Shown: one piece after another, positions 1,490-19,068 of the stretch | Layout: each line of letters opens with the position of its first letter | Numbering within the stretch: the stretch's first letter is position 1 | Source: Verrucomicrobiota bacterium | GTDB taxonomy: Bacteria; Verrucomicrobiota; Verrucomicrobiia; Limisphaerales; SXTU01 | Direction: 5' to 3' | NCBI GenBank assembly: GCA_016871445.1 | Contig: VHDH01000012.1 | Span: 1 to 50,034 of the forward strand | DNA: 50,034 nucleotides | The notes under the pieces: model-generated | What the model was told of the DNA's origin: nothing | Database searches by the model: none | What the model saw: the letters and a program-made list of their open reading frames with translations, nothing else | Program-made: the position numbers and the translations under genes

Positions 1490-2704
1490 TCACTTGGCCG
1501 GCTTGGAGGGGGGCTTTTCCTTGAAAGTCGAGCGCAGCAGCCAATGGCGCTTGAGGCCCTGCACCAAGTCGTCCGTGTGGATGATAGCGGAGGAAATCTC
1601 GGTCAGCAGGTTGGTGTTGGCGGCCACTTGGGCATTCAGATTGCTGGTGAGGTTGGCGAGGTTGGATAGCGAAAGGTCCAAGTTCAGGGCGAGCTTGGTG
1701 AAGTTGGTGTCGGCCTGAGCTAAGGTGCCGTCGGCGGTTTGCATGAGGCGGCGCGTCTCGGCGAGGGTGGAATTGGCGTTGCTAAAGGTGGTGCGGGCCT
1801 CGGCCAGCGTGGCGCGGACCGAGGCCAGCGTTTGATCGGCAGCGGTGTTCAGGTTCGTCGGCAGCAGCCAGGTGCCGAGCGAGCCGGCGGGGTTGGTAAG
1901 GTTGGCGGTGATGCGGTGAACGTTCGCGCTGACGGGGTGGAAACTGGCAACCAGGTGGTTGGCATTGCTGGCGATGGGCTGCAGCTCAGCGATGCGCGTG
2001 TCGAGGTTTGAGAGGGTGCGCGTGGTGGTGGCCAGCAGCGCGACGACTTGGTTGGTGAGGCTCAGAATGTTGGGCAAGGCGGCCTCAGCCTGCGTGACGA
2101 GCTTTTCCGCACGCTGAGCGAATGCGGGCGATTCGTTGGCGATGATGTGATACGGCGCGGAACCGGCGGACCAGTTGGTGTAAGTGGCGGCCGGTTCGTG
2201 CCAGATCCGGGTGATGAGCTTGCCTTTTATCTCGTAGGCGGCGCGCAAGTTCTTCTTGGAGCCGTCCGAGTTGGTATAGCCGTTCCAGCCGCCGGGCATG
2301 ATCTCCAAATAACGCCCACTGAGCAGATCCGCGCCCACGCGCACGCGCGAATCATTCCAGATGTAACCAATGGAGTGGCTGCGGACGATGAATTCCACAT
2401 ACACGAAATGTCCTTCGTAGTATTCGCCGGAGTCCGGCGGCACCGGGCGGATGCGCGTGATCTCACCGGCATCAAAGCCCATCAGCTTGATCTTGTCGCC
2501 CTCCTTGAGGCCCGCCGCGCTGTCGACATAGGTGTAAAACGGCGCGCGCAAGTCGAACCAGCCCCGGTTTTCCGCCGTGTGATAGAGGTAATAGCCAAAG
2601 CCGGAGAGCAGCAGCACGGTGGCGAGGATGACAAACACGCCAACGGCGTGCTCCACGCGGCCAAGCCGGGTGCGGAGTTGCGGGGTGAGGTCTTGCAGTG
2701 CCAT
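1490..2704 (-). CDS. mlaD: MlaD family (MCE domain) lipid transport protein
   Basis: A 404-residue inner-membrane-anchored MCE protein, expected to bind phospholipid for a MlaEF-type transporter. One membrane helix spans about residues 20-41. The MCE domain follows (about 48-150), with the typical 'aGLkeGdkV...G...G.I' pattern (AAGLKEGDKIKLMGFDAGEI). It has a longer loop than E. coli MlaD, with the LLSGRYLEI core at about 128-137. Residues 190-380 are a long alpha-helical, Asn/Leu/Thr-rich region resembling the tunnel-forming helical tails of longer MCE proteins. It starts 34 bp after the stop of the ATPase gene and is the third gene of the mlaE-ATPase-mlaD operon. The symbol is by family only. 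Confidence 0.88.
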   Translation of the reverse strand: MALQDLTPQLRTRLGRVEHAVGVFVILATVLLLSGFGYYLYHTAENRGWFDLRAPFYTYVDSAAGLKEGDKIKLMGFDAGEITRIRPVPPDSGEYYEGHFVYVEFIVRSHSIGYIWNDSRVRVGADLLSGRYLEIMPGGWNGYTNSDGSKKNLRAAYEIKGKLITRIWHEPAATYTNWSAGSAPYHIIANESPAFAQRAEKLVTQAEAALPNILSLTNQVVALLATTTRTLSNLDTRIAELQPIASNANHLVASFHPVSANVHRITANLTNPAGSLGTWLLPTNLNTAADQTLASVRATLAEARTTFSNANSTLAETRRLMQTADGTLAQADTNFTKLALNLDLSLSNLANLTSNLNAQVAANTNLLTEISSAIIHTDDLVQGLKRHWLLRSTFKEKPPSKPAK

Positions 2705-2738: not shown

Positions 2739-3524
2739 TCATGCAGCCAGAAATTCGCGGATAGTGGATTCCTCGCTGGCGATTAGTTCCGTGCGTCCGC
2801 CCAACGACAACCACCGACGGCCTTGCAACAAGGCGAACTGTCGCGCTTGGTCGCGCCACAGGCGCAAGTCATCCGTCGTGGCCACGATGGCAAGTGGACG
2901 TCCGCCCAGCCAGGCGTGGCCGGCGTTGAACGCGGCCAACGTGTCGAGCCACCAACGGACCTGGCGCGGGTCAAGGCCAGCCAATGGGTTGTCTAGCAAC
3001 AGCACTTCGGGCCGAAGCACGAGCGCGCGGGCGAGGGCGACGCGCTGTCGCCATCCGCGATTAAGCTGGCCCGCCAGCTGCGGCGCGGAGTCCGCCAGGC
3101 CCGTGAGCGCCAGCACGGTCTCGACGGCCTCGTTGGTTTCCTCGGCCGGGCAGTTGCGATGATAGCGCAGGGGCAGCGCGATGTTCTCCCGCACGGTCAT
3201 CTGCGGGAACAGCCGCCCGCCGTTTTCAAACACCACGCCCATCCGCAGCCGTGCCGCCACCAACTCCGGTTGCGTCATCACCGTGATGTCCTCACCAAAG
3301 AGCAAATGCTGCCCGCCTGACGGATGCTGCAAGCCGGCCACCGTCGTTAGCCAATCGCTTTTTCCCGACCAATGCCAGCCGCCGACCGCCCAATATTCGC
3401 CCGGCCGCAACTGCCAACTTACCCGCTCAACCAGGGCCACGTCAGGCTCCAGCACGGCTGCAATGTCCGCCTGCACCAACTCGATTAGCGGCGCAGCAGC
3501 ATCGATGGAGGCAGGCGTATTCAC
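2739..3524 (-). CDS. Mla-type ABC transporter ATP-binding protein with degenerate catalytic motifs
   Basis: A 261-residue ABC ATPase-like subunit in the MlaF position. Translation most likely starts at GTG 3524, which overlaps the permease stop by 4 nt; the open frame continues upstream only antiparallel to the permease gene's own frame. Walker A is present but odd (GWHWSGKSD, about 49-57). Expected catalytic positions differ from the family norm: Glu100 where the Q-loop Gln should be (VFENGGRLFP), LNRGW (154-158) in place of LSGGQ, Asp178-Asn179 in Walker B where the catalytic Glu should follow Asp, and Thr217 at the H-loop His. Walker B Asp, D-loop (LAGLD) and the fold pattern are intact, so the gene is not broken. 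It may hydrolyse ATP poorly or only bind it, or use a second subunit. Confidence 0.87.
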   Translation of the reverse strand: MNTPASIDAAAPLIELVQADIAAVLEPDVALVERVSWQLRPGEYWAVGGWHWSGKSDWLTTVAGLQHPSGGQHLLFGEDITVMTQPELVAARLRMGVVFENGGRLFPQMTVRENIALPLRYHRNCPAEETNEAVETVLALTGLADSAPQLAGQLNRGWRQRVALARALVLRPEVLLLDNPLAGLDPRQVRWWLDTLAAFNAGHAWLGGRPLAIVATTDDLRLWRDQARQFALLQGRRWLSLGGRTELIASEESTIREFLAA

Positions 3525-4381
3525 ATCACAACATAGACCAAGATGAACAAGGCGTCCGCCGCCACACAACCCGCCACGCTCTGCGCCACCGCGCGCGTGG
3601 TCGCATCGGACACATCCTCCAACCGCAACGGTTGCGCCAGCCCTTGAAAACAGGTCACCGTCGCGATGATTGCCCCGAACGTCGCCGTTTTCAACGCGAG
3701 CAACGCAAAATCTTCCCACCGCAAAGCGCGGGCGATTTGGTTGAAGTAATCTCCCGGCGTCAACGGCACATCTTGGAGAAAAATGAACAGGTAACCGCTG
3801 AACACCGCCACCAAGATCAAATACACCGTCAGCGAGAAAATCGCCGCCGCCAACCCTATCACGCGCGGCATCACCAAGTAATGCACGGGGTCAATGCCCA
3901 ATGCCTCTAGGGCTTCCACCTCGCCCTGTGCACGGCTGAGGCCCAACTCCACCACGATGGCCGTACCCACGCGCGCCAACACCAACAGGGCCGTCGCCAA
4001 CGGCCCCAGCTCTCGAATCAGCACGGTCACCATCACTGTCCCCGCATATTGCTCTGCCCCAACGCGTTGCAACAGCGAAACTGTCTGCGCCACGATCACC
4101 AACCCCAGTGCCAACCCGAAAAACACCACACCCGGCAGCAGCCGAACGCCGGCGCGGTCAATTTGCGTGCGGATGAGCGGGTGTGTGACCCGCCACGCCG
4201 CGTTGAACTTGGTAAACGTGACGCCAAGGGTGATAAGCGCGAACGCGCCGACGCCCTGAATGGTTTGCAGCAGCCGGAAAATCTGCTGCCCCACGAAGTT
4301 GAGGTAACTGCGGGGCAGTGCCAGCCCGCTTGCCTGTAGCGGCGGTGCGGCGGGCTTGGCGGAGTCTTGATCCACGCGCAC
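3521..4381 (-). CDS. mlaE: MlaE family ABC transporter permease
   Basis: A 286-residue integral membrane permease of the MlaE family, partner of the ATPase and MCE protein downstream. Five to six hydrophobic helices are visible. Family motifs include the coupling-helix region around RELGPLATALLVLARVG (about 128-144) and a GxEVEALEALGIDP-like segment (QGEVEALEALGIDPVHYLV, about 151-169), the signature of the family. The start is a GTG at 4381; no Shine-Dalgarno is evident, and a second GTG six bases downstream is possible. The stop overlaps the ATPase start, indicating translational coupling. It is first in the operon; the promoter should lie in 4382-4510. Confidence 0.93.
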   Translation of the reverse strand: MRVDQDSAKPAAPPLQASGLALPRSYLNFVGQQIFRLLQTIQGVGAFALITLGVTFTKFNAAWRVTHPLIRTQIDRAGVRLLPGVVFFGLALGLVIVAQTVSLLQRVGAEQYAGTVMVTVLIRELGPLATALLVLARVGTAIVVELGLSRAQGEVEALEALGIDPVHYLVMPRVIGLAAAIFSLTVYLILVAVFSGYLFIFLQDVPLTPGDYFNQIARALRWEDFALLALKTATFGAIIATVTCFQGLAQPLRLEDVSDATTRAVAQSVAGCVAADALFILVYVVM

Positions 4382-4510: not shown

Positions 4511-5350
4511 TCAGTAATCCTTCAACGCTCCCTTGCGCAGCGCGTCCTTCTCTGGCTCGGGCAGCCCCCGGTTGTAGCGGTAAATCGAATCCTCAAAGTC
4601 ACCATAAAGCGGGTTCGGCAGCACGATGAAGCGTCGACCAAATTCCTTCGCCAGCCGGTCCACCTCGGCAATGCGCGTGGCCGCATCCTTTCCATCGAAG
4701 GCTTCGCTGAAATCATTTAGATTATCGCCCAGCAACAGCACGATCTCGTGCGTCGCGCTGACCGCGGCACGGCGCTTGGCCTTACTACCCTCGGTGGTGC
4801 GCAGCAACAGGTGCGCGTCGTCCGCATTGGGGAATCCCTTTGCCCGTAAATTCGCCAAGGTACCCGCCTGCTCTTCAATGCGGCGATTTGAAACGTAAAA
4901 CACCTCCACCCCGCGCGCCGCGGCGTGCGTGAGAAACTCCACCGCCCCCGCCAGCGCCTCGGCACGGGCGAGATCCACCCACTGCCGCCACGTCGCGGGC
5001 GCGTAACTCTGCCGCGTCTTGACGAGCCGCGCCTGATACGGGCTGTTGTCGAGCACGGTTTCATCCACATCCACGACCACGGCGCGTTTCTTGGGCGCAG
5101 GATTCGCCTTCAACTCCTCGTCCAGCACGCGGCGCGCGAGGTTAAAGGCCTGGTGACACAGCGCGCGATATTCACCCGAACGCTGCACCCACAGCACGGC
5201 TTGTACGGTGTGTTCGTTAGTCGGGTAGCTGGTGGTGGGCGGGGAGGGGGCAAGTTGTGGCGGGGGGCTGGGCCGAGGACATATGCAGGCCGTCAACGCG
5301 CCAGCCAGAAGCGCAAGAACCAAAGCGCGCGAGAAAAGGGTGCCCCTCAT
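4511..5350 (-). CDS. 5'-nucleotidase / acid phosphatase, lipoprotein e(P4) family
   Basis: A 279-residue HAD-superfamily phosphatase. From the ATG at 5350, residues 1-22 are a lipoprotein signal peptide with lipobox LTAC, so the mature protein should be anchored by its Cys to the membrane. The catalytic HAD motif DVDETVLDN (about 98-106) matches the class C acid phosphatase / e(P4) family, which removes phosphate from nucleotides and other monoesters outside the cytoplasm. Motif III-IV appears as LLLGDNLNDF near residue 210. The frame is open 12 codons further upstream, but that start would overlap the preceding gene. The chosen ATG is 4 nt after its stop, so the two are co-transcribed. Confidence 0.9.
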   Translation of the reverse strand: MRGTLFSRALVLALLAGALTACICPRPSPPPQLAPSPPTTSYPTNEHTVQAVLWVQRSGEYRALCHQAFNLARRVLDEELKANPAPKKRAVVVDVDETVLDNSPYQARLVKTRQSYAPATWRQWVDLARAEALAGAVEFLTHAAARGVEVFYVSNRRIEEQAGTLANLRAKGFPNADDAHLLLRTTEGSKAKRRAAVSATHEIVLLLGDNLNDFSEAFDGKDAATRIAEVDRLAKEFGRRFIVLPNPLYGDFEDSIYRYNRGLPEPEKDALRKGALKDY

Positions 5351-5354
5351 TGGT

Positions 5355-6194
5355 TCACTTGCGTTGGTGAGACAGAAACCATTCATAGAGCTTCGGCTGG
5401 TTGTAGGTCACCGTCCACGAATCATGGCCCGCCTCGGGATAGACCGTGAGTTGCACGTCCTTCAGCCCGATTCTTTTGAGCAACGCAGCCAAGCGCTCAG
5501 ATTCCGAGAGCAACACCACCGGGTCTTTCGCACCGTGAAACGCCCAGACCGGCGTGGCCCGCAGCGCCGCCGCCTTGCCGCGCGCGGGCAAGAGAAAATC
5601 AATTGTGTTGCCGCCGCCACAAATGGGCGCAACGGCCGCAAAGCGCTCCGGGGCCTTCGCCAGCAGCGCCCAAGCGCCGTAGCCGCCCATGCTTAGGCCG
5701 GTCAGGTATACGCGGTTCGCATCGACCTGGTGCGCCGCGAGCACGCTGTCGAGCAGGCCGAGGACCGCGTCGCAGTCCCAGGACTGGTCAGCGGGGCATT
5801 GCGGCGAGACGACAATGAACTTCTCCGCGAGCAACATGGTCGCCGCCTCGCGATCCGCGCGGGCAGCGTCGGGCTCGTTCTTTGGCGCAGACGGATTCTT
5901 CTTCACCAGCTTGGGCGGGCCGTGGACGGAAACTTGCGCGAGGTTCGTGCCTCGCTCGCCGGAGCCATGGAGGAAGAGGATGAGTGGCCACCGCTTCGCC
6001 GCCTTTGCATCGTAGCCGGGCGGGAGGTAAAGCAAGTAGTTGAGTTCGGCCTGTCGACTAAACTGGCCGGAATATTTATGACGAGTTTGCATGAGTTCAG
6101 AATCGGGAGCCTGGGCGATGGCAGCGGTCGCGGCGGCGAACAAAAGCACGAAAACGAGCGAGCGCGGGAGGCGGTAAGGGCGGTGCGATGTCAT
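5355..6194 (-). CDS. Secreted alpha/beta-hydrolase esterase
   Basis: A 279-residue protein with a signal peptide (about 1-28, ending AIAQA) and an alpha/beta-hydrolase fold. Visible pieces are the oxyanion-hole segment LFLHGSGERGTN (about 73-84), the nucleophile elbow GLSMGG (Ser about 168), the acid GAKDPV (Asp about 220) and AGHDSW with the catalytic His (about 254). This is the pattern of dienelactone hydrolase/PHB-depolymerase-like esterases, which in Verrucomicrobiota often cleave esters on polysaccharides; substrate unknown. It is upstream of and co-transcribed with the acid phosphatase, and divergent from the RfaH-like gene with 99 bp between. Confidence 0.87.
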   Translation of the reverse strand: MTSHRPYRLPRSLVFVLLFAAATAAIAQAPDSELMQTRHKYSGQFSRQAELNYLLYLPPGYDAKAAKRWPLILFLHGSGERGTNLAQVSVHGPPKLVKKNPSAPKNEPDAARADREAATMLLAEKFIVVSPQCPADQSWDCDAVLGLLDSVLAAHQVDANRVYLTGLSMGGYGAWALLAKAPERFAAVAPICGGGNTIDFLLPARGKAAALRATPVWAFHGAKDPVVLLSESERLAALLKRIGLKDVQLTVYPEAGHDSWTVTYNQPKLYEWFLSHQRK

Positions 6195-15321: not shown

Positions 15322-18300
15322 ATGAAATCGTTGCTTGGCCTCGCAGTACTCACGACGGGTTTGCTTTCCACCACCTCCGCCGCGCCTGTCCCGCTCTTTG
15401 ACGGCAAATCCCTCGCCGGGTGGGAGGGCGAGACGAACAAAGTCTGGCGCGTCCGCGAGGGCGTCATTGTTGGCGGGTCGCTGGAGGGGAATCCGCGCAA
15501 TGAGTTCCTCGCCACGCGCAAGAGCTACAAGAATTTCCACCTCCGCTTCGAATACAAGCTGGTCGGCACGCAGGGCTTTGTGAACGGCGGCGTGCAGTTC
15601 CGCAGCAAGCGCATCCCGAATCCGCCGAACGAAATGTCGGGTTACCAAGCGGACATCGGCGCGGGCTTCTCGGGCTGCCTTTACGATGAGTCCCGGCGGA
15701 ACAAAGTCCTCGCACAGGCGGACACGAACTTCGTGGCGCGGCTCGAAAAGCCCGGCGAATGGAACAGCTACGAGGTCGTGGCCAGCGGCGCGCAAATCCT
15801 TCTCTTCATCAACGGTCAGCGCACCGCCATCTGGGTCGAGTCGGAGAAAGGCATCGAGGACGCCGGCGTCATCGCGCTGCAAATCCATGGGAACTGCAAG
15901 GCGGAGATTTCCTTCCGCAATCTCACGATTGATGAGTTGCCGGCTTCGGCCATCCCGCCCGAGGCGGAGATTCTCAGCCGGTTCGGCACCGCGCAGCCGG
16001 GCGTGCCAGTCGGACCGTTTGCGGACGGCAAATTCGCGCTGGGCGCAAATGAAGTCGTCGTGTTCGTCGGGCAGGAGAACTTCGTGCGCGAGTCGAAGGC
16101 GGGTGAACTCGAGGCGCTGCTGGCGTCGGCCTTCGCCGCGAAAGCCCCGCGCTTCCGCTCAATGGCATGGGAGGCGGACACGGTTTACGAGCAGTGGCGC
16201 GACTTGAACTTCGGCTCGTGGGCGCGGCAGCTCGAAGCGGCGGGCGCGACCATCGTGGTGGCGCAGTTCGGGCAGATGGAGGCGCTCGACGGCGTGGCGC
16301 GGCTGCCGGAGTTCACGGCGGCGTATCACCGGCTGCTGGACCAGTTCGCGACGCGCACGCGCAAGGTGGTGCTGGTCTCGCCGGTGCCGTTTGAGAAGCC
16401 GCTCGCGTCGCACGCGCCGGATCTGACGAAGCGCAACGGCGACGTGCGGGCCTACGCGGACGCGGTGCGCGACATCGCCAAGCAGCGCGGGGCGGTTTTC
16501 GTGGATGTGTTCACGCCGCTCGCTGTCCGCGCGCCTGGCCAGCGACTCACCGAAGACGGGATTCACCATACGAGCGACGGGTTGCGGGAGTTCGCCTCGC
16601 TAGCGGCGCGGCAGCTCGGGGCAGAGGCGAAATTGTCCGCCGAGTTGGAACCGCTGCGCGCCGCTATCTTGCGAAAGAACCAGCTGTGGTTTGACGCGTG
16701 GCGGCCGGCGAACTGGTCGTTCGTCTATGGCGACCGCGTCAACCAGATGTTCGGCAAGGCCGGCGGCTCGGAGCCGTCGCTGAAGGAATCGTTTGAGCGC
16801 CAGCGCCCGCTGGTGAACGCGGCGGACGCGCGGATTCACGCGCTCGCCAAAGGAGCGGCACCCCACCCCTCACCCGCCCTTCGGGCACCCTCTCCCCTCC
16901 TCGGAGGAGGGGAGAGGGATGGGGTGAGGGGTAGTCTCCCGGATGCAAAGGCACCTGCTCCGGCACTTTCCCCCGAGGAACAACTCGCGACCTTCACCGT
17001 TGCCGCGGGCTACCAAGTAAACCTCTTTGCCTCTGAGCGCGACGGTGTGGTGAAGCCGACCCAATTCGCGTGGGACGAGAAAGGCCGTCTCTTCGTGGCC
17101 TGCTCGCCCACGTATCCGCAGACGCTCGCGAGCGCGCCACCCGCCGACTACATCCTTGTGTTGGAAGACACTGACGGCGACGGCAAGGCGGACAAGTCGT
17201 GGCGTTTCGCCGAGGGACTAACGATGGTGCAGGGCGTCGAGCCCGGCGCAGGCGGCCTCTACGTTTGCGACTTTGACCAGCTCCTCCACCTGCGCGACAC
17301 GAATGGCGACGGCAAGGCGGACCAACGCAAAATTATCTACGGCGGCTTCGGCGTCGGCGACACGCACCAACTCATCAACAGCATCTGCCACGGGCCGGAC
17401 GGCAGCCTGTGGTTTTCGCAAGGGCTGCACGCATTCTCGCGCGTCGAGACGCCGTGGGGCATCGCGCGGCTGGACCGCGCGGCGGTGTGGCGCTTGAACC
17501 CCCGCACGCTGCGGCTGGAGGGTTTCTTCGGCGGCGGCATGGCGGGCGCAAACTGCTGGGGCGTGGCCTTCGACGACTTCAACCAGGTCTTCCACAAGTC
17601 CGGCGACCGTCCGCACGGCTACTGGAGCGTGCCCGGCTTGGTGCGCGGCGCGAGTCCCAGCGGCAGCAGCGTGGCGACGGAAGCAAACTCCGCGTATCGC
17701 AACTCACCCGAGCAATACCATTCCGTCGGCCCCCTTTTCGACACGTCGCCGAAGACCACTTCGCTCGACATCGTCGGCACGCGCGCGCTGCCGGATGACG
17801 TTCAAGGTGCGGCGCTCATTGGCGGTTACTTTGGCGCGGTGGTCGAGCTGCACAAGTTCGAGGACGCCGGCTCGGGCTTCAAGACCACGCAGCTGCCCAA
17901 GCTGCTCAAGTCGTCGAACGCCGCGTTTCGCCCGGTGGACGTGAGCGTCGGCCCGGACGGCGCAATGTATGCGGCGGACTGGTTTAACCCCATCATCGGC
18001 CACTATCAGGCCAGCTACGCCGACCCGCGCCGCGACAAAGCCCACGGCCGCATCTGGCGCATCACCGCGAAGGACCGCCCGACCGTTAAACAGCCGAACC
18101 TGGCCGCGATGAAGCCCGCCGAACTGCTCGGACAACTCAAGTCGCCTGAGCGCTGGACGCGCTACCAAGCCAAGCGCCTGCTCTTTGACAAGCCGGCGAA
18201 TGAAGTGCTGAAGGCGGCGGATGAGTTCGTGGCGAAGCTTCCGTCGGCGACGCCCGCCGACGAGCGCGTGTTGCTCGAGGTCATTGGCATCTTCGAGGCG

Positions 18301-19068
18301 CACGAGTCGCCGCGCCCGGCGTTGCTTGCGAAGTTGCTCGCTGCAAAGGACGCCCGCGTCCGCGCCTACGGAGCGCGCGTGGCCGGGATGTGGGCGGACC
18401 GCTTGCCAAACAACGCGCTTCTGCTGACCGAGTGCGCGAAGGACGAGAACGCCCGCGTGCGCTTGGAGGCGGTCGTGGCCGCGAGCTACCTCGCTGGCCC
18501 GAGCGCGGCCAGCGTGGCGCTCACGGCGTTGGACAAGCCGACGGACAAGTTTCTCGACTACGCGCTGCGCCAGAGCACGCGCGCGACGCAGTTGGCGTGG
18601 GCGAAGCCGTTCGCGGCCGGCCAGCTCCAGCTCGCGAGCGCCGCGCAAGGCGAATACTTGCGGAAGCTCCTCAGCGCCGCGCCAAAGACGGCGTCGCCGG
18701 GCGAACAGCTTTACGAGATGGCCTGCCTGCCGTGCCACCAGCCTGAGGGCAAAGGATTGCCCGGCGTTTATCCGCCGCTGGCCGGCAGCGACTGGGTGCG
18801 CGGCGACAAGGCCCGCATCATCAAGGTGATTCTCCACGGCCTCACCGGCCCCGTGACCGTCGCGGGCCAGAACTTCGGCCACTTGCCCAGCTCCGTCCCC
18901 ATGCCGGCACTCGGCGGCCTGACCGACGAGCAAATCGCCGACGTGCTGACCTTCGTGCGCGCGAGCTACGGCCAGCAGGCGTCACCGGTGACAGCGGCAG
19001 AGGTGAAGTCCGTTCGCGATGCAAACGCCAAACGCGAACAGCCATGGACTGCGGCGGAGTTGAAGTAA
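15322..19068 (+). CDS. Giant fusion: DUF1080 - SGNH-like - PVC-type dehydrogenase - HEAT - cytochrome c
   Basis: A 1248-residue secreted multidomain protein. Signal peptide about 1-20; DUF1080 about 22-210; an SGNH/GDSL-like domain about 240-440; a low-complexity linker about 500-550, part of which is encoded by a nested palindrome; a PVC-type membrane-bound dehydrogenase beta-propeller about 555-920, with two DTDGDGKAD/DTNGDGKAD Ca-binding-like motifs; HEAT-like helical repeats about 930-1110; and a cytochrome c domain with CLPCH (Cys1135, Cys1138, His1139). In the SGNH part the usual GDS nucleophile is replaced by VGQENF (about 247-252), while DGIHHT near 412 keeps the His, so hydrolase activity is doubtful. 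Probably a periplasmic sugar-oxidising protein that passes electrons to its own heme; this is inference. A perfect 7-bp hairpin starts right after the stop. Confidence 0.93.
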   Translation: MKSLLGLAVLTTGLLSTTSAAPVPLFDGKSLAGWEGETNKVWRVREGVIVGGSLEGNPRNEFLATRKSYKNFHLRFEYKLVGTQGFVNGGVQFRSKRIPNPPNEMSGYQADIGAGFSGCLYDESRRNKVLAQADTNFVARLEKPGEWNSYEVVASGAQILLFINGQRTAIWVESEKGIEDAGVIALQIHGNCKAEISFRNLTIDELPASAIPPEAEILSRFGTAQPGVPVGPFADGKFALGANEVVVFVGQENFVRESKAGELEALLASAFAAKAPRFRSMAWEADTVYEQWRDLNFGSWARQLEAAGATIVVAQFGQMEALDGVARLPEFTAAYHRLLDQFATRTRKVVLVSPVPFEKPLASHAPDLTKRNGDVRAYADAVRDIAKQRGAVFVDVFTPLAVRAPGQRLTEDGIHHTSDGLREFASLAARQLGAEAKLSAELEPLRAAILRKNQLWFDAWRPANWSFVYGDRVNQMFGKAGGSEPSLKESFERQRPLVNAADARIHALAKGAAPHPSPALRAPSPLLGGGERDGVRGSLPDAKAPAPALSPEEQLATFTVAAGYQVNLFASERDGVVKPTQFAWDEKGRLFVACSPTYPQTLASAPPADYILVLEDTDGDGKADKSWRFAEGLTMVQGVEPGAGGLYVCDFDQLLHLRDTNGDGKADQRKIIYGGFGVGDTHQLINSICHGPDGSLWFSQGLHAFSRVETPWGIARLDRAAVWRLNPRTLRLEGFFGGGMAGANCWGVAFDDFNQVFHKSGDRPHGYWSVPGLVRGASPSGSSVATEANSAYRNSPEQYHSVGPLFDTSPKTTSLDIVGTRALPDDVQGAALIGGYFGAVVELHKFEDAGSGFKTTQLPKLLKSSNAAFRPVDVSVGPDGAMYAADWFNPIIGHYQASYADPRRDKAHGRIWRITAKDRPTVKQPNLAAMKPAELLGQLKSPERWTRYQAKRLLFDKPANEVLKAADEFVAKLPSATPADERVLLEVIGIFEAHESPRPALLAKLLAAKDARVRAYGARVAGMWADRLPNNALLLTECAKDENARVRLEAVVAASYLAGPSAASVALTALDKPTDKFLDYALRQSTRATQLAWAKPFAAGQLQLASAAQGEYLRKLLSAAPKTASPGEQLYEMACLPCHQPEGKGLPGVYPPLAGSDWVRGDKARIIKVILHGLTGPVTVAGQNFGHLPSSVPMPALGGLTDEQIADVLTFVRASYGQQASPVTAAEVKSVRDANAKREQPWTAAELK
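16865..16932. repeat. Nested palindromic repeat inside the giant fusion CDS
   Basis: Outer arms 16865-16875 and 16922-16932 (ACCCCTCACCC / GGGTGAGGGGT) enclose inner arms 16888-16902 and 16904-16918 (15-bp perfect stem, 1-nt centre) and a small GCCC-TTC-GGGC hairpin (16876-16886). It is 68 bp of almost pure purine/pyrimidine strand asymmetry, quite unlike the coding sequence on either side. It keeps the reading frame open and encodes about residues 515-537 of the fusion, in the linker between the SGNH-like and dehydrogenase domains. Similar sequences are common in intergenic regions of environmental genomes. Confidence 0.85.

Follow-up and report, generated by a model that had tools for sequence, protein, structure and literature searches.

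An MlaF-like protein without most canonical ATPase residues in a conserved MlaE–MCE gene unit of Verrucomicrobiota

Introduction

PqiABC and LetAB (YebST) are MCE bridges that function without an ABC ATPase and have a membrane subunit other than MlaE, and the Mce1 ATPase of M. smegmatis is, as judged from its family, a hydrolysing NBD.

In ABC proteins, each nucleotide site is built from Walker A and B, Q-loop and H-loop of one NBD and the signature of the other (PMC7756269). In E. coli MlaF, Lys47, Thr48 and Ser146 contact ATP, and the E170Q exchange alone lowers ATPase activity by about 80% (PMC7784689). E. coli complexes are reported to be capable of ATP-independent lipid transfer from MlaD to MlaC, which hydrolysis reportedly blocks (PMC10212509). 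Degenerate ABC sites are well known, but they are paired with a canonical site; in the degenerate site of Pdr5, Glu is changed to Asn, His to Tyr, and the signature is altered (PMC7756269).

Here, a gene unit composed of MlaE, NBD and MCE protein is described from a 50,034-nt stretch of DNA of a Verrucomicrobiota bacterium (the window). Unlike PqiABC and LetAB (YebST), this unit retains both MlaE and NBD. As in the degenerate sites of Pdr5, TAP and CFTR, its NBD has lost the catalytic Glu and the H-loop His, has an altered signature, and is selected rather than decayed; those proteins, however, keep one canonical site, whereas the single NBD gene of the window carries both degenerate halves (PMC7756269). 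The unit resembles the minimal MlaEFD of Veillonella parvula in having three genes, no MlaB in the operon and a long MlaD with a single MCE domain, for which a bridge across the envelope is predicted. It differs in that a close resemblance to the MlaF of model diderms is described for Veillonella MlaF and that Veillonella MlaD ends in a beta-barrel, which MlaD of the PVC bacteria lacks (PMC10665443).

Results

Motifs of the ATPase

The ATPase gene (Table 1) was found where the sequence-only reading had placed it, and its 4-nt overlap with the permease gene was borne out. The product matches the ABC ATPase superfamily profile PF00005 with 80 bits (cut-off 25), and the NCBIfam MlaF model NF008809 yields 79.2 bits, which is below its cut-off of 441.

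Table 1. Positions of the gene unit, the ATPase motifs and neighbouring features in the window.
Feature	Position	Strand	Basis or remark
BBP2/OmpL-like beta-barrel porin, directly downstream of MCE gene	111..~1301	minus	PF07642, 148 bits; start set at the signal-peptide Met (inferred)
MCE (MlaD-like) protein, 404 aa	1490..2704	minus	PF02470, 33.3 bits, cut-off 25.1
N-terminal 14 residues of MCE protein	2663..2704	minus	
MlaF-like pseudo-ATPase (NBD), 261 aa	2739..3524	minus	PF00005, AlphaFold2, orthologues; GTG start at 3524, stop ends at 2739
H-loop position, Asp218 replacing His	2871..2873	minus	alignment
Walker B with Asp178 retained and Asn179 at the catalytic Glu	2988..2993	minus	alignment
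Signature LNRGW (residues 154–158) replacing LSGGQ/LSGGM	3051..3065	minus	alignment
Q-loop position, Glu100 replacing Gln	3225..3227	minus	alignment
Walker A GWHWSGKS (residues 49–56)	3357..3380	minus	Lys55 and Ser56 retained; Trp in place of Gly at residue 52
Divergent MlaE-type permease, 286 aa, first gene of unit	3521..4381	minus	PF02405, 188 bits, cut-off 22.5
HAD class IIIB acid-phosphatase-like protein	4511..5386	minus	just upstream of MlaE gene
1248-aa multidomain protein	15322..19068	plus	

Motifs were read from an alignment with E. coli MlaF and with canonical MlaF of the window's own genome and of relatives' genomes. The Walker A loop is altered with respect to the canonical GPSGSGKS/T, its Lys being kept together with the Walker B Asp. 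The alignment confirmed the Glu at the Q-loop, the LNRGW signature and the Asn after the Walker B Asp, all of which had been noticed from the letters alone. It also confirmed that the H-loop His is lost, but not that Thr stands in its place at about residue 217: Thr217 lies one position too early and aligns with the Thr or Ser preceding His in canonical MlaF. Where E. coli MlaF has its A-loop aromatic residue (Phe16), most members of the pseudo-ATPase family have Val or Ile; since the clade's canonical paralogues, too, mostly lack an aromatic residue in this column, its absence was not counted among the losses.

Predicted structure

The AlphaFold2 model of the window ATPase, built from alignment A1, reached a pLDDT of 93.0 and a pTM of 0.90. 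The best fold match in the PDB was E. coli MlaF (6xbd_I; TM 0.86, 2.0 Å), and all eleven top matches, with TM values of about 0.79–0.86, were MlaF or Mce1 ATPases, the latter (M. smegmatis, 8fed) being the second-best fold family. By this prediction, the closest solved structures are MCE-type ABC ATPases. The likeness to MlaF of MlaFEDB (E. coli, A. baumannii, P. aeruginosa; PDB 6xbd, 7d06, 7cha) covers the fold, the MlaE–NBD–MCE unit, the Walker A Lys and the Walker B Asp. In contrast to these proteins, the window ATPase lacks the Q-loop Gln, LSGG, the catalytic Glu, the H-loop His and the C-terminal extension, and identity in the fold alignment is about 27%.

Conservation of the altered motifs

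The family sample comprised 75 members from the window's order and two neighbouring families, which were scored for six canonical residues (Q, S, G, G, E and H). None of the six was kept in 51 members, one in 22 and two, the maximum, in 2, whereas all six were present in 20 of 20 canonical MlaF. The Q-loop column contains Gln in 3 members, Glu in 43 and Asp in 12; in the signature, Ser is found in 10, Gly147 in none, with Arg in its place in 46, and Gly148 in 8; the catalytic Glu is kept in 3 and replaced by Asn in 57; and the H-loop column has His in 2, Asp in 46 and Glu in 10. Where a residue is fixed to 95% or more in canonical MlaF and has been lost in the family, its column mostly belongs to the Q-loop, signature, Walker A/B or H-loop. 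A transitional member with canonical residues was sought among the most divergent ones (L188 and L213–L232), and none was found.

These losses are not due to chance, because they are shared by 75 homologues and shown by none of the 20 canonical MlaF; an isolated mutation or an assembly error was ruled out by the same 75 members. The alignment of homologues, proposed earlier as a check, shows the altered motifs to be more widespread than the single gene from which they had been reported, and normal residues in close relatives, which would have refuted that report, were not seen.

The retained residues bear on whether the NBD still binds nucleotide. If it were an inert scaffold that binds none and merely stabilises MlaE, loss of the signature, Q-loop and H-loop would be accommodated, as would the absence of the third Walker A Gly from about half of the members and the faster divergence of the NBD within the genus (65–74% identity, compared with 78–87% for MlaE and 74–79% for the MCE protein). 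Yet the Walker A Lys (72/75) and Ser/Thr (74/75) and the Walker B Asp (75/75) have stayed near-invariant while neighbouring motif residues drifted, and we regard an inert scaffold as unlikely, though a possibility to be kept in mind. Gly54 of Walker A is present in 75/75 members and the D-loop Asp in 53/75.

A different catalytic arrangement, which the sequence-only reading had also considered, would mean that ATP is still hydrolysed, for example with Asp218 (H-loop position) or Glu100 (Q-loop position) acting as the base and Arg156 of the opposite signature loop contacting the gamma-phosphate. The near-invariant Walker A Lys and Walker B Asp are compatible with this, and so are the acidic residues that 56/75 members have at the H-loop position and 55/75 at the Q-loop position, and the Arg at signature position 156 in 46/75. 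The candidate residues are, however, variable (Ala, Thr, Ser, Gly or Asn in some members), unlike an essential active site, and the residues newly fixed in the family (W37, W45, W191, W192, W223, Y121, F76 and others) are all hydrophobic, aromatic or small. A search of the newly fixed columns for an invariant acid, His or Lys revealed none. As no new invariant acid or His was gained, this option is weakened to the point of being improbable, although it is not excluded.

Distribution, descent and selection

Identity of orthologues to the window ATPase falls from the in-genus values to about 29–53% across the order. In a draw of genomes from the class searched with profile A1, where no member scored below 178 bits and most other ABC proteins did not exceed 165, a member was found in 38 of 42 same-order genomes, in 5 genomes of family f57 and in 8 of family f59, and none in the class's other families that were part of the draw. 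No match at E 1e-50 was obtained in 288 other genomes drawn from the phylum. Among the matches listed in a scan of contigs beyond the clade, which were otherwise ordinary ABC proteins, there was at least one clear member, L063, from a MAG of uncultured Verrucomicrobia subdivision 3; from this naming, the host clade is inferred to be probably the Pedosphaera/Limisphaera group.

One same-order genome scored as lacking a member (G038) is an exception by score only, as its more divergent protein (L188, on contig C19) is also degenerate. Judged by its branch in the tree (2.5 changes per column), L188 is the most divergent member of all; its motifs are degenerate throughout, and it still adjoins the divergent MlaE.

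The pseudo-ATPase family forms one clade (SH-aLRT 100). Its stem is long (1.11), and its placement relative to canonical MlaF is unsure in this long-branch tree. Pairwise dN/dS within the genus was about 0.07–0.41 at dS values of 0.4–1.4; the ratios are rough because dS is partly saturated. The gene is under purifying selection. A pseudogene, a sequencing error or an isolated mutation, for which nothing speaks except the unusual motifs themselves, is contradicted by intact reading frames in dozens of independent genomes, by dN/dS well below 1 and by the conserved gene order, and can for practical purposes be dismissed; the initial judgement that the gene is intact and not decaying was correct.

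The gene unit and its neighbours

The coupling-helix region of the divergent MlaE (ELGLSRAQGEVEALEALGIDPVHYLVMPR) is conserved with canonical MlaE in the alignment, and the protein shares 47–87% identity with its orthologues across the order, being the best conserved of the three within the genus. The MCE gene begins 34 nt after the ATPase gene and encodes a conserved, presumably cytoplasmic N-terminus, a TM helix, one MCE domain and a long helical C-terminal region. In its model (pLDDT 61), the MCE region is confident and helices 195–393 are of low confidence; as predicted, it is in keeping with the envelope-bridging MlaD of Veillonella (PMC10665443).

In alignment A2, the MCE protein shows hardly any variation in its first residues, M[AP]LQDLTPQLRTRL. 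Across the order, near-invariance was observed for the N-terminal 14 residues (MALQDLTPQLRTRL), which by inference should face the cytoplasm before the TM helix and could contact the NBD. A comparable N-terminal extension is not known from E. coli MlaD.

The divergent MlaE gene lies upstream on the same strand in 80/80 loci (some genomes being counted twice), and an MCE gene lies downstream in 73/79, with none recognised in 6/79. At L053/L146, L156, L171, L221 and L230, MlaE and the pseudo-ATPase occur without a recognisable downstream MCE gene, which may be lost, located elsewhere or too divergent.

Genomes of relatives typically hold one or two further canonical MlaE, and the ATPases beside these have normal motifs. 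In the genome from which the window comes, there is one canonical MlaE (contig C13), and the ATPase adjoining it is normal over the part that the contig covers. A canonical MlaF of the same cell could pair with the degenerate NBD in a heterodimer with one degenerate site, like TAP or CFTR, and ABC heterodimers of this kind are common (PMC7756269). The unit itself has one NBD gene only and does not contain a second canonical NBD that would complete an active site. Since the NBD has lost both halves of the site, no fully canonical site would arise in a mixed dimer, nor in a homodimer; moreover, the partner MlaE belongs to a distinct divergent clade that is paired with the pseudo-ATPase at every locus counted. 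We therefore give such a heterodimer only a small chance.

The porin gene adjoins the unit only in the window and at L194–L196, all from the same genus, and was rejected as a core part of the unit; an outer-membrane partner role in this genus alone is possible. At L203, L205 and L210, from three other lineages, a TPR-repeat protein takes its place. On the upstream side, an acid-phosphatase-like gene precedes MlaE in the window, and no homologue was found beside the unit in the relatives examined. Elsewhere in the window, the 1248-aa protein combines 3-keto-disaccharide hydrolase, GDSL-lipase-like, DUF7133, HEAT and cytochrome c parts.

Discussion

We favour, with moderate confidence, the reading that the window ATPase serves as NBD in a third Mla/MCE complex, one specific to this lineage, and is a nucleotide-binding pseudo-ATPase, the complex probably being a passive or nucleotide-gated lipid conduit. 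The sequence-only reading had suggested ATP binding without normal hydrolysis and a lineage-specific form of lipid transporter; both ideas are supported by the clade-wide changes in a gene under purifying selection, the former also by the retained Walker A/B contacts, although binding and loss of hydrolysis are inferred without biochemistry.

In the proposed mechanism, two copies of the NBD would bind the MlaE dimer through the intact coupling helices, as MlaF does; the homodimer and its stoichiometry are inferred, and the two-fold arrangement is assumed by analogy with MlaFEDB. Each copy would probably still bind Mg-nucleotide through Walker A and Walker B, which is argued from the retention of the Walker residues. 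With Gln, Glu, His and the glycines of LSGG missing together, both formation of the ATP sandwich and hydrolysis should be abolished. The NBD might then serve as a structural clamp, or one sensing nucleotide occupancy, that keeps MlaE open to the MCE tunnel. Lipid would move between the inner membrane and the bridge formed by the long helices of the MCE protein, either passively or by diffusion under nucleotide gating, its direction being a matter of inference. As ATP-free transfer from MlaD to MlaC is reported for E. coli, with hydrolysis blocking it, a hydrolysis-free version should act as a passive or gated conduit, and cells would have this in addition to their ordinary, ATP-driven Mla systems.

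Against this nucleotide-binding pseudo-ATPase stands that a few members retain one or two canonical residues, and the acidic residues at the Q-loop and H-loop positions could in principle join catalysis. The low confidence of the C-terminal MCE helices and the 6 of 79 loci without a recognised MCE gene also weigh against the proposed complex. Held only tentatively is the wider view of a clade-wide MlaE/MCE conduit that has dispensed with hydrolysis and uses the NBD as a nucleotide-binding gate, that is, an ABC transporter turned into a lipid bridge.

In the open-access literature searched, where absence is weak evidence, neither a published description of this pseudo-ATPase family nor an MlaF or MCE-type NBD with both sites necessarily degenerate was found. 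The family could have been missed, because in a phylogenomic study of Mla, MlaF was found by synteny and profile and its annotation was called uncertain (PMC10665443).

A homodimeric ABC unit with both nucleotide sites degenerate would be unusual among ABC transporters. The finding bears on a disputed point, namely whether ATP hydrolysis is required by Mla/MCE systems and which direction of lipid flow depends on it. Cells with this natural, selected Mla version, which looks hydrolysis-deficient, also have ordinary Mla systems, so that the point becomes testable by comparison. A gene that has been kept intact and under selection without almost all of the parts for burning ATP suggests that the lipid bridge may do without a motor of that kind.
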